64,000 nucleotides of DNA from Hahella sp. KA22 (GTDB taxonomy: Bacteria > Pseudomonadota > Gammaproteobacteria > Pseudomonadales > Oleiphilaceae). The notes beneath the pieces are model-generated. The model was not told where the DNA came from. It made no database searches and saw only the letters and a program-made list of their open reading frames with translations. The position numbers were made by a program, and so were the translations under genes. The stretch covers positions 6,377,501 to 6,441,500 of the forward strand of contig NZ_CP035490.1 of NCBI RefSeq assembly GCF_004135205.1, read 5' to 3'. This document shows, piece by piece, positions 59,773-63,769 of the stretch; the first letter of the stretch is position 1, and every line of letters starts with the position of its first letter.

Positions 59773-62700
59773 ATGCCGAAGAACACAAGGAACAGCGGAC
59801 GGCGCGCCGTAAAAGGTCCTTTTCTCGCCGTACCTCATGAAGCCCGTTTTCAGTACATCCTCGACGATATTCCCGAATTGATCTGCCGCTGGAAGCCGGA
59901 TGGAGCGATCACGTATGTGAATTCGCAATATTGCCGCTACTTCGGGTCACCCAGAAATGCATTGATAGGAAAATCGATCTTTACCCTGTCGCCTTCTGAA
60001 GAGCGCAGCGCGATTCATGAACAAATGCGCCGGATTACGCAAACCTCCCCTGTCAGCCAGCAGGAGCGCAAAGCCATTGACGGAAACGGAACCCAGCGCT
60101 GGTTGTTATGGACAGATCGCGGAATATTTGACTCACAAGGACGCCTGCTGGAGTTGCAATCCATCGGTCGAGACATTACTGACAGCAGGGAAACCAATGA
60201 ACAAATAGGGTTCATGGCCAGTCTGGCGACTTTGAGCCCTCACCCCATTATGCGCGCGACCCGCGACGGCGCCATTATCTACGTCAATTACGCCGCAGCG
60301 GAGTTTCTCAAGCTATGGGAAACCGCCATTGGCGACCTCATTCCCTCAACCTGGGAGCCCACTCTGAAAAAAGTGATGGACTCAGGAAAGACAGCGACGC
60401 TGGAATTGGAGCGCAACGGCCGGCATTTTCTACTGACGTTATCCTGTGACCGCTCCGCCTCTTCCCAAGAGAAAGTCGCCAACCTTTATATCACTGACAT
60501 CAGTAAGCAGAAGCAAAATGAGGACGCACTGCGTCGCAGCGAAAGCCGCCTCGGAGCCCTGGTGTCAGCCGAGGCGGACAGTATTCTGGTCATTGATGAT
60601 GCCGGCGTCATCCGCTTCGCCAATCCGGCCGCGGAGCGAATTTTCGGCAAGCCCAAAGAGATGCTGATCGGCCAGTCATTCGGCGCTCCCTGCCTGAATG
60701 GCGACTATGCGGAAGTGGAGTTCCCCCGAGGCGGCAAGCGCATCGCGGAAATGCGGGCGCAACCAGTGCCCTGGAACGACATCCAGGCGCATCTGATTAC
60801 GTTGCATGACGTGACGGACCATCGTAAGCGCGAACATCTGCTGCAGCGACGCAACCGCACGTTGGCGGTGCTCACCGCCTGCGACCATCACTTGGTCAGA
60901 GAGAACGATGAGCGACGTTTGATTGATTCTTTCTGTCGCCAGTTGGTCGGCGTGGGACGCCATCAAACCGCCTGGTTCGGGTGGGTGGATGACGGTCGTC
61001 TGGACACCTCCAGCAAAGTCATTCTGGCTGGAGACGAGACACCGTTTACGCTAATGAAAGAGCGCCATCGTCTGGCCCTGGATGAGAATGATCCCGTGAT
61101 CCAAGCGCTTCGCGAAAACTGCTCTGTGACGCGGCATGATCTATCAGAGCTTTACAGGCTTCCTCCCAACTCGAACAGTCAGCCTTTGAGTCAGTGCATG
61201 ATCGCCTTACCCGTGGGTAAGTCCCCCGAGACGCTGGGGATAATGGTCATTTATTCAGAGTATGCAGAAGCATTCGACCACGAAGAGATCGAGTTGCTTG
61301 AACAGCTCGCGGATGATCTTTATTACGGCGTCGTCTCCCTGCGCACCCGGCATGCCCGGGAAAAAGCGGAGGAATCACTGCGCTTGCGCGATCGCGCAGT
61401 GGAGTCCACTCCCAATGGCATACTGATTCTCAATGCGCGTCGCCCCGACCTGCCGCTGGTCTACGTCAACCCTGCATTCGAGCGCATTACCGGGTATAGC
61501 AGCGGTGAAGTGGTGGGAAAAGGCCCGTTTTTTCTGCAAAGCGATATTGATGAAGACCGCCGCAGAGAGTCCCTGCATTTTTTGATTCGCAACCGGGAGG
61601 AAGGCTGCGTTCTGTTGCGCAATCAGCGTAAAGACGGGTCGCAGTTCTGGAATGAGCTGCACATCGCTCCGGTTTACGACGACCGCCGCATGCTCACTCA
61701 CTTTGTCGCCGTGATCAACGACGTCACCGAGAGCCGGCATTATCAGGAACAGCTGGAATATCAAGCCTCCCACGATGACCTGACCGGCCTGCCTAACCGC
61801 AACATGATGCGCGACCGTCTGGGTCAGGAGCTGTGGCGCGCCGCCCGCAACAAGCATAAAGTGGCTATCGTGTTTCTGGATATCGATCAGTTCAAATTGA
61901 TCAACGACAGCCTCGGCCATAACGCCGGCGACGCCATGTTAAAGGTGATCGCCAAGCGGCTTACTGGCATGGCGCGAGCCAGCGACACTGTTGTGCGCTA
62001 CGGGGGCGACGAGTTCGTCATCATTCTTCCGGATATCTCGCCGCCGGAGAAAGTCGCCAGTTTCATATCCCGGCTTATGGACGTGATCGCGCAGCCCATT
62101 CAATTGGATCATCGCGACATTCGGGTTTCCGCCAGTATCGGCGTCAGCATTTATCCGCAGGATGGCGACCATCCCGAAGTCCTGATAAAAAATGCGGATA
62201 TCGCCATGTATCTGGCCAAAGAAGAGGGCCGCAACCGCTTCCACTTCTTTACTGAAGACCTCAACAAAACCGCGATGGAGCGTCTGGATCTGGAAGTGCG
62301 ACTGCGCGCCGCCTTAGAGAAACAGCAGTTTCATCTGGAGTACCAGCCGCAAGTGGATTTGCGCAGCGGCGTTATTACCGGGGTCGAAGCACTGTTGCGC
62401 TGGCATGAACCGGAGCTGGGCGATATCCCTCCCGGTAAATTCATTCCCATTGCGGAGGAAACCGGCCTCATCGGCGCCATTGGCGAGTGGGTGCTGCACG
62501 CCGCCTGCGTACAGGCGAAAGCCTGGACTGATTTGGTCGCTCATCCGTTGACCATGTCCATCAATCTGTCAGCGAAACAACTGACCATGGCGCGTTTTGA
62601 CAGCGCCCTGCACAGCATACTCACAGACACTGGCGTGGACTGCCGCCATATCGAGATAGAGTTGACGGAAAGCGCCATCATGCGCAACGTAGATGAGATG

Positions 62701-63504
62701 CGCGAGCGCCTGAATCTTTTGAAGGAGCAGGGACTCAAGCTGGCGGTGGATGACTTCGGCGTCGGCTATTCCAGCTTCAGTCATCTGCGCAGTTTCTCCT
62801 TTGACCGGCTCAAGCTTGATATTACTTTCGTACGCGACATCACTACCGACCCCAATACCGCCTCCATCGCCCGCACAGTGATGTCCATGGCCAGAAGCAT
62901 GCGTATGCAAGTGGTGGCGGAAGGCATAGAAACGGAAGCTCAACTGCGCTACCTGCAACGGCTGGGGTGTGATGTAGGGCAGGGCTTCTTCCTGGGACGT
63001 CCGGCGTCTGCCGAGAACATCGAAGCGCTGCTCGCCAGCCCCCGTATCCGCTCTGTGCGCCCTCCCCCGTCCTCCGCCGCCCGCAACCTGCTGGTGCTGG
63101 ATGATGAGATGAACGTAGGCAGCGCCATCAAGCGGCTGCTGCGCCATCAGTTCAACGTGTTCCACGCCACCACGTCACGGCAGGCGTTCGACATCATGGC
63201 GCGCACACCGATTCAGGTCGTTATCTCTGATCAGCGTATGCCGGACATGTCGGGGACGGAGTTTCTGAATCGGGTGAAAGAGCTACACCCCAACGCAATC
63301 CGCCTCATCCTCACCGGTTATGTGGATATGGAGACGATCACAGAAGCCGTGAACAAAGGCTGGATATTCAAGTTCCTGACCAAGCCCTGGCAGGATGACA
63401 AACTGCTGCAGGTCGTGACGGAGGCCTTTGAGCAGTACGAGAAAGAGCACCAGACGCGACTGCTGGATACAGCGAACGGAGTCAGCGATGCAGCCCGCGC
63501 CTGA
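59773..63504 (+). CDS. multi-sensor PAS/GAF/GGDEF/EAL protein with C-terminal receiver domain
   Basis: A 1243-residue protein with no membrane segment. In order I see PAS with PAC (24-140), a second PAS-like domain (148-245), a third (255-355), GAF (about 365-535), a fourth PAS with PAC (545-665), GGDEF (670-828), EAL (840-1090) and a receiver (1105-1225). GGDEF at 744-748 is intact, with I-site RASD five residues before. EAL at 872-874, NLS, ELTES, DDFGVGYSS and AEGIET are intact, so both synthesis and hydrolysis of c-di-GMP are possible. The receiver has D1153 in ISDQRMPDMSG and resembles RpfG/HupR receivers. A receiver after EAL is unusual. A KaiB-like gene starts inside its last codons. 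Confidence 0.9.
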   Translation: MPKNTRNSGRRAVKGPFLAVPHEARFQYILDDIPELICRWKPDGAITYVNSQYCRYFGSPRNALIGKSIFTLSPSEERSAIHEQMRRITQTSPVSQQERKAIDGNGTQRWLLWTDRGIFDSQGRLLELQSIGRDITDSRETNEQIGFMASLATLSPHPIMRATRDGAIIYVNYAAAEFLKLWETAIGDLIPSTWEPTLKKVMDSGKTATLELERNGRHFLLTLSCDRSASSQEKVANLYITDISKQKQNEDALRRSESRLGALVSAEADSILVIDDAGVIRFANPAAERIFGKPKEMLIGQSFGAPCLNGDYAEVEFPRGGKRIAEMRAQPVPWNDIQAHLITLHDVTDHRKREHLLQRRNRTLAVLTACDHHLVRENDERRLIDSFCRQLVGVGRHQTAWFGWVDDGRLDTSSKVILAGDETPFTLMKERHRLALDENDPVIQALRENCSVTRHDLSELYRLPPNSNSQPLSQCMIALPVGKSPETLGIMVIYSEYAEAFDHEEIELLEQLADDLYYGVVSLRTRHAREKAEESLRLRDRAVESTPNGILILNARRPDLPLVYVNPAFERITGYSSGEVVGKGPFFLQSDIDEDRRRESLHFLIRNREEGCVLLRNQRKDGSQFWNELHIAPVYDDRRMLTHFVAVINDVTESRHYQEQLEYQASHDDLTGLPNRNMMRDRLGQELWRAARNKHKVAIVFLDIDQFKLINDSLGHNAGDAMLKVIAKRLTGMARASDTVVRYGGDEFVIILPDISPPEKVASFISRLMDVIAQPIQLDHRDIRVSASIGVSIYPQDGDHPEVLIKNADIAMYLAKEEGRNRFHFFTEDLNKTAMERLDLEVRLRAALEKQQFHLEYQPQVDLRSGVITGVEALLRWHEPELGDIPPGKFIPIAEETGLIGAIGEWVLHAACVQAKAWTDLVAHPLTMSINLSAKQLTMARFDSALHSILTDTGVDCRHIEIELTESAIMRNVDEMRERLNLLKEQGLKLAVDDFGVGYSSFSHLRSFSFDRLKLDITFVRDITTDPNTASIARTVMSMARSMRMQVVAEGIETEAQLRYLQRLGCDVGQGFFLGRPASAENIEALLASPRIRSVRPPPSSAARNLLVLDDEMNVGSAIKRLLRHQFNVFHATTSRQAFDIMARTPIQVVISDQRMPDMSGTEFLNRVKELHPNAIRLILTGYVDMETITEAVNKGWIFKFLTKPWQDDKLLQVVTEAFEQYEKEHQTRLLDTANGVSDAARA

Positions 63505-63769
63505 ACCGTCGCTGGTAGAGCTGACGCTCTATGTGCAATCCGTATCCAAGGTTTCAATGGGCGCTATCCGCGCAGCCCGCCACCTTTGCGAAAATGTGCT
63601 GGCGGGCCGCTGCACGTTGAACATCGTCGATCTCGATCAGAGCCCCCAGACCGCCGAGCGTGACGCCGTGCTGGCGACGCCGACTCTGGCCTGGGGGAGT
63701 CGACGCATTATCGGCGACCTGTCAGATAGCGCCAGAGTGTTGGAACTGCTGGAGCTGACGGCGCTCTGA
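63488..63769 (+). CDS. KaiB-fold protein
   Basis: A 93-residue protein that resembles cyanobacterial KaiB along its length: an LTLYV first strand, IVDLDQSP, then LATPTLA and RRIIGDLSD, the most conserved KaiB segment. Compared with Synechococcus KaiB, the loop between these last two is shortened by several residues and lacks the prolines. The start at 63488 has GGAG seven bases upstream and lies 17 bases inside the preceding gene, so translation is coupled; the frame is open to 63428. KaiB switches fold and binds KaiC, and related domains occur in SasA-type sensors. No kaiA or kaiC is in the window. A redox or signalling role with its neighbour is inference. Confidence 0.8.
   Translation: MQPAPEPSLVELTLYVQSVSKVSMGAIRAARHLCENVLAGRCTLNIVDLDQSPQTAERDAVLATPTLAWGSRRIIGDLSDSARVLELLELTAL

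Follow-up and report, generated by a model that had tools for sequence, protein, structure and literature searches.

A KaiB-like protein without KaiC in Hahella, encoded in overlap with a predicted c-di-GMP synthase/hydrolase: a candidate clock-free adaptor

KaiB is usually treated as a servant of KaiC, and the question raised by this locus is what a KaiB-like protein might do when its gene lies directly behind one for c-di-GMP turnover and no KaiC is found. The window, i.e., the whole stretch of 64,000 nucleotides that was analysed, comes from Hahella sp. KA22, a marine bacterium, and carries the kaiB-like gene at 63488..63769 on the plus strand. The product, read from an ATG start, is 93 residues long, with the KaiB domain at residues 14-89. 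The initial annotation, made from the letters of the DNA, had recognised a KaiB core by the motifs LATPTLA and RRIIGDLSD; both are present in the product, and the family assignment was borne out by a profile search, in which PF07689 (KaiB) scored 44.6 bits (E 1.2e-11) against the Pfam cut-off of 27. This gene is the sole KaiB match in the one-contig genome of 6,960,771 bases (6.96 Mb), for which completeness is estimated at 100%. KaiB chains in the PDB matched the protein with E values down to 4.4e-11. Its scores with the NCBIfam equivalog models for the clock KaiB lie below the cut-offs (50.9 against 145.3 bits for TIGR02654, 52.6 against 110 bits for NF006798). Plasmid records matched KaiB in 16 cases, all below 60% identity, and a KaiB tree (95 columns), in which 41 of the 87 inner branches are open, leaves its origin unsettled.

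The preceding gene (59773..63504, plus strand) encodes a protein of 1243 residues in which Pfam profiles delineate PAS, GAF, PAS, GGDEF, EAL and receiver domains. The GAF domain (residues 378-515; 60904..61317, plus strand) scored 36.5 bits with PF13185 (GAF_2; cut-off 28.6). The GGDEF domain (PF00990; residues 665-822; 61765..62238, plus strand) has RYGGDEF with an RxxD upstream, and the EAL domain (PF00563; residues 843-1077; 62299..63003, plus strand) has EALLR together with the other motifs sought. Orthologues were scored against a list of GGDEF and EAL motifs that we take to be the relevant ones, and RYGGDEF, EALLR, DDFGVGYSS, EGIET and GQGF, like the upstream RxxD, are intact in all four Hahella orthologues of the enzyme; with these motifs intact, the protein is predicted to be a c-di-GMP synthase/hydrolase. 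As the annotation had stated, it ends in a receiver (residues 1107-1215; 63091..63417, plus strand), which scored 65.7 bits with PF00072 and retains the Asp of SDQRMP, the acidic pair and the Lys. Within the same gene a GGAG resembling a ribosome-binding site (63478..63481, plus strand) stands 6 nt 5′ of the kaiB ATG, and the last 17 nt (63488..63504, plus strand) overlap kaiB; the ribosome site and the overlap, both noticed at the outset, are retained in all four Hahella species that have the pair. A scan around the pair gave 2 promoter-like sites where 3.3 were expected and 7 terminator-like sites where 4.4 were expected, with no usable signal in either. At E <= 1e-40, a search of 389 other genomes of the order gave no match to the sensory half of the enzyme, a weak negative taken over at most three scored candidates per listed genome. 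At 59800-59802, near the N terminus, the window's protein lacks 20 residues relative to its three Hahella orthologues (1243 versus 1263 residues).

Within the genus the two genes travel together. PF07689 found KaiB in four of the seven Hahella genomes (G000, G001, G002 and G005), and enzyme matches of 93-97% identity occur in exactly these four; G003, G004 and G006 offer at best 38-43% identity. What we take to be purD and a small lipoprotein-like gene flank the pair elsewhere; in G004 and G006 these two are immediate neighbours and the pair is cleanly missing, which makes it a two-gene insertion or deletion that comes and goes as a unit. In G003 the lipoprotein-like flanking gene sits in a different context.

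The absence of KaiC, also part of the annotation, was found to hold across the genus: no kaiC lies beside kaiB, and a full-length KaiC query of 580 residues returned nothing above 23.3 bits (E 6e-5) from any of the seven Hahella genomes. With the profile of the broad ATPase family PF06745 the genome of the window gives six matches (best single stretch 37.8 bits, best frame 64 bits); this profile likewise matches 14 of 14 control genomes, including that of E. coli, and is therefore unable to tell KaiC apart. At E <= 1e-15 the full-length query has a match in 31 of 38 and 32 of 35 KaiB-matching genomes of two sets, the check having omitted genomes whose only KaiB matches lie below the cut-off (G162, G327, G407, G479, G543, G689 and G716). 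Ten KaiB-matching genomes are without a KaiC match: the four of Hahella, G775, G943, G946, G937 (8% contaminated, with KaiB on a contig of 4,991 bases), and G485 and G524, in which the KaiB matches themselves are doubtful (26.5 bits, below the cut-off, and 32 bits). A survey from 2017 (PMC5520375) gives the rule that in Bacteria and Archaea KaiB occurs only where full-length KaiC is present; Hahella, with one draft and three one-contig genomes, clearly breaks this rule. The kaiA gene is called exclusive to cyanobacteria in a review (PMC8874327). G030 was considered as a second KaiC-free case and rejected: kaiC lies directly downstream of its kaiB, which makes it a KaiBC case.

To place the pair among other KaiB loci, PF07689 was run on overlapping sets of genomes, with matches in 6 of 58 relatives, 9 of 390 genomes of the order (6 over the cut-off), 33 of 369 of the class (28 over) and 38 of 398 of the phylum (37 over). 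From the relative, order and class surveys 41 loci, 4 of them from Hahella, were annotated with custom profiles; the architecture counts leave out L178 and L179, in which the custom profile found no KaiB, and L032 (G162), where the match is below the cut-off. A kaiB gene was counted as linked when a GGDEF or EAL gene stood with it in one run of annotated genes on the same strand, with gaps below 250 nt, and linkage was present in 16 of the 31 non-Hahella gammaproteobacterial genomes with KaiB, a total in which G524, with its doubtful KaiB, is still counted. In 15 of these 16 such a run includes kaiC too, the exception being G775. Runs without kaiC occur at L028 (G203), L163 (G619) and L169 (G746, on a contig of 5,406 bases), all in genomes with a KaiC elsewhere. 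At L028 (8431-11094) KaiB is directly fused to the enzyme, as a single ORF of 887 residues reads KaiB-GAF-GGDEF-EAL; G203 has, in addition, a kaiC-kaiB-GAF-GGDEF-EAL run at L029. Over the 35 non-Hahella loci, GGDEF/EAL ORFs cover 22.6% of the bases less than 3 kb from KaiB versus 7.5% beyond 4.5 kb; the bootstrap interval of the difference is 0.055 to 0.244, with 7 of 2000 replicates not above zero. On the KaiB tree, well-supported branches force the linkage label to change at least 11 times, in a scoring that skipped the rows from the related-locus search except L117. The overlap in all four Hahella species, the other linked genomes and the fusion thus supply the conserved linkage to GGDEF/EAL genes for which a neighbour survey had been proposed. 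The further claim, that the arrangement would be wholly undescribed, did not survive: a 2011 paper reported that in kaiC-kaiB clusters outside cyanobacteria the gene directly downstream of kaiC or kaiB encodes, almost without exception, a GGDEF/EAL protein or a histidine kinase (PMC3164672, in part). Linkage of KaiB to GGDEF/EAL proteins is therefore already known, and what is unusual in Hahella is the lack of KaiC and a four-residue loop in KaiB; a KaiC-free KaiB with a GGDEF/EAL partner was not found in the open-access literature, judged mostly by titles and the starts of abstracts.

The loop in question joins TPTL to RRIIG. It has four residues in the Hahella KaiBs (AWGS, ARGS or ACGS, without proline), AWGS being residues 68-71 in the window (63689..63700, plus strand), and in the alignment of 83 non-redundant other KaiBs it has eight residues in 82, seven in one and four in none. 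The loop proline is absent from 9 of these 83 too, all of which keep the length and have KaiC in their genomes. For the KaiB of R. sphaeroides, isomerisation of P58, P65 and P67 is described as rate-limiting for the fold switch, and all three prolines are said to occur in 474 of 487 KaiB variants (passages of PMC11551320). By alignment the Hahella protein retains the equivalent of P58 and has no counterpart of P65 or P67. In the same text, the NMR peaks of the fold-switched state vanished from the R. sphaeroides protein on P58A or P65A substitution, so that losing loop prolines need not favour that state. The residues K58, G89 and D91 were tried as markers for a locked fold and discarded, with 33 of the 83 other KaiBs also carrying none of the three.

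Structure prediction was carried out with AF2 on a deep alignment of 45 sequences and on a shallow one of 11, the latter in imitation of the ten-neighbour approach of PMC10808063. Both runs gave the order b-a-b-a-b-b-a, i.e., that of the fold-switched state, with mean pLDDT of 88.8 and 87.4 for the best of five models; the shallow run included three models with means of 57.8 to 76.1. According to PMC10808063, three fold-switching KaiBs come out in the ground state when ten-neighbour alignments are used, and ColabFold gives the fold-switched state even for the KaiB of T. elongatus, which at rest is in the ground state. The fold of the Hahella protein is thus predicted to be the fold-switched, thioredoxin-like, KaiC-binding type, from a method that tends to that state. 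The closest structure is the Legionella pneumophila KaiB Lpp1115 (4kun; Z 14.6, rmsd 1.2, 85 residues aligned, 39% identity); the fold-switch-stabilised KaiB 5jwr (Z 12.8, rmsd 1.6, 83 aligned) is also among the best matches, and 8fwj matched as well.

These observations can be accommodated, with moderate confidence, by a KaiB that acts as an adaptor free of any clock, is probably fixed in its binding fold and would regulate its c-di-GMP partner, kaiB and the GGDEF/EAL gene making up one signalling unit. The Hahella KaiB would likely stay in the fold-switched, thioredoxin-like form, the one in which known KaiBs bind partners, and the protein would then be a constant adaptor and not a slow clock switch. 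With less certainty, it may dock on the coupled enzyme, where the receiver is the likeliest site: strand b2 of fold-switched KaiB binds the CikA pseudo-receiver as well as KaiA (PMC6378743, in part), and a contact between KaiB and the Hahella receiver would be an extension by analogy from that receiver-fold partner. Once docked, KaiB might change how far the enzyme makes or degrades c-di-GMP, or present it to another partner. Two points count against the receiver as the docking site. Unlike the CikA pseudo-receiver, which has no phospho-acceptor Asp, that of Hahella keeps this residue and is therefore not a pseudo-receiver of the same kind; and few other KaiB-linked GGDEF/EAL proteins carry a receiver, the custom profiles finding one outside Hahella only at L025 and L170, so that by these profiles receivers are not a regular feature of such proteins. 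The strictest version is put forward as a tentative proposal: a KaiB independent of KaiC, and deprived of its fold-switch loop, would be locked in the binding fold and would gate the synthase/hydrolase directly via the receiver. At L025 (4478-7873, G030) a receiver-GAF-PAS-GGDEF-EAL protein precedes kaiB-kaiC, with the receiver at its N terminus and, by eye, what seems to be a Gly at the position of the phospho-acceptor Asp, as in a pseudo-receiver.

The rarity of receivers among other KaiB-linked enzymes also lends itself to a different explanation, namely that the pair is merely co-expressed, the overlap setting no more than stoichiometry, while KaiB acts on another partner, either a histidine kinase responsible for phosphorylating the receiver or some unrelated protein. 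A second type of KaiB unit lacking KaiC bears on this: in G943 (L223:6931-7236) and G946 (L224:7086-7391), which belong to one genus, the genes for KaiB and a histidine kinase share 4 nt. In the kinase SasA, the KaiB-like N domain (1t4y) has the same fold as the Hahella model (Z 10.0, rmsd 2.6, 90 aligned). That it is exactly the KaiB-enzyme pair which is gained and lost within Hahella, and that KaiB is fused to GAF-GGDEF-EAL at L028, both point to the enzyme itself, and action on some other partner is considered rather unlikely.

It may also be asked whether this KaiB has any function left. A kaiBC-GGDEF/EAL cluster that lost kaiC could leave behind a jobless, drifting KaiB, and the almost constant company of kaiC in the other linked runs is what such an origin would predict. 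The Hahella protein sits on a long branch of the KaiB tree (1.87) and has lost common residues, e.g., the Gly after strand 1 that is found in 78 of the 83 non-redundant other KaiBs. G775, the linked genome with no KaiC match, has a broken-frame KaiB gene just ahead of a GGDEF gene (L183:7022-8255); this KaiB was excluded from the tree and from the loop counts. Against drift, dN/dS by NG86 over six Hahella species pairs, drawn from four closely related species with little independence among them, is 0.08-0.15 for the whole of kaiB and 0.07-0.14 outside the overlap. The enzyme gave 0.03-0.05, and its last 160 codons 0.005-0.021. By these ratios kaiB is under purifying selection, and its intact frame and conserved ribosome site in the four species add to what makes a relic improbable.

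An ordinary thioredoxin-like redox protein, for which the presence of thioredoxins among the structural matches might speak, is largely excluded: a sequence scan found no CXXC motif of redox thioredoxins in the Hahella KaiB, the PF07689 score is over its cut-off, and the top four structural matches are KaiB proteins, three of them more than one Z unit above the best thioredoxin (11.4). The plain thioredoxin fold unrelated to KaiB, which had been named as the outcome that would overturn the assignment, was thus not what the model gave, thioredoxin-like as it is. A KaiBC timer whose KaiC was missed, as the published pairing of KaiB with full-length KaiC (PMC5520375, in part) might lead one to expect, is refuted by the lack of KaiC in a one-contig genome of 100% estimated completeness and in its six congeners, unless in each of the four species KaiC sits on a replicon that was not sequenced.

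The reading of a clock-free adaptor can be set beside several known systems. Like the SasA N-terminal domain, the Hahella protein is a KaiB-like domain tied to a two-component protein. KaiB-TV-4 (8ubh), presumably from a cyanobacterium and in this unlike Hahella, is a weaker sequence match (E 8.7e-6). By NMR this variant sits in the fold-switched state, and a Legionella KaiB was crystallised in that state (both from PMC10808063); unlike that of Hahella, the Legionella KaiB belongs to a kai operon, going by a title cited there. The binding partner of SasA, itself a kinase, is KaiC (PMC6378743, in part), whereas in Hahella the KaiB is a separate protein beside a GGDEF/EAL enzyme, with no KaiC. 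The nearest parallel in gene order is that of the non-cyanobacterial kaiC-kaiB clusters with GGDEF/EAL proteins (PMC3164672, in part; here L026, L029, L160, L161, L164, L177, L184 and L187), where KaiB likewise lies near a GGDEF-EAL gene in one direction of transcription; Hahella differs from them in lacking KaiC, in the C-terminal receiver of the enzyme and in the short KaiB loop.

A selected KaiB without KaiC beside a c-di-GMP enzyme would show what KaiB alone can do, and suggests that KaiB-type proteins can act as signalling adaptors outside any clock. With two proteins and no clock, the case is small enough for direct testing, and the naturally shortened loop offers a test of the published proline model for KaiB fold switching. 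An adaptor role would also explain why KaiB-GGDEF/EAL neighbourhoods recur in Gammaproteobacteria. If the reading is true, KaiC-free KaiB adaptors would form a small class, made up of Hahella (GGDEF/EAL), G943 and G946 (histidine kinase) and G775 (GGDEF, with the KaiB frame broken). Downstream of kaiB, at a distance of 2.4-2.6 kb in the four pair-bearing Hahella species, a REC-REC-GGDEF gene of 418 residues lies on the opposite strand (L008:8695-9951).
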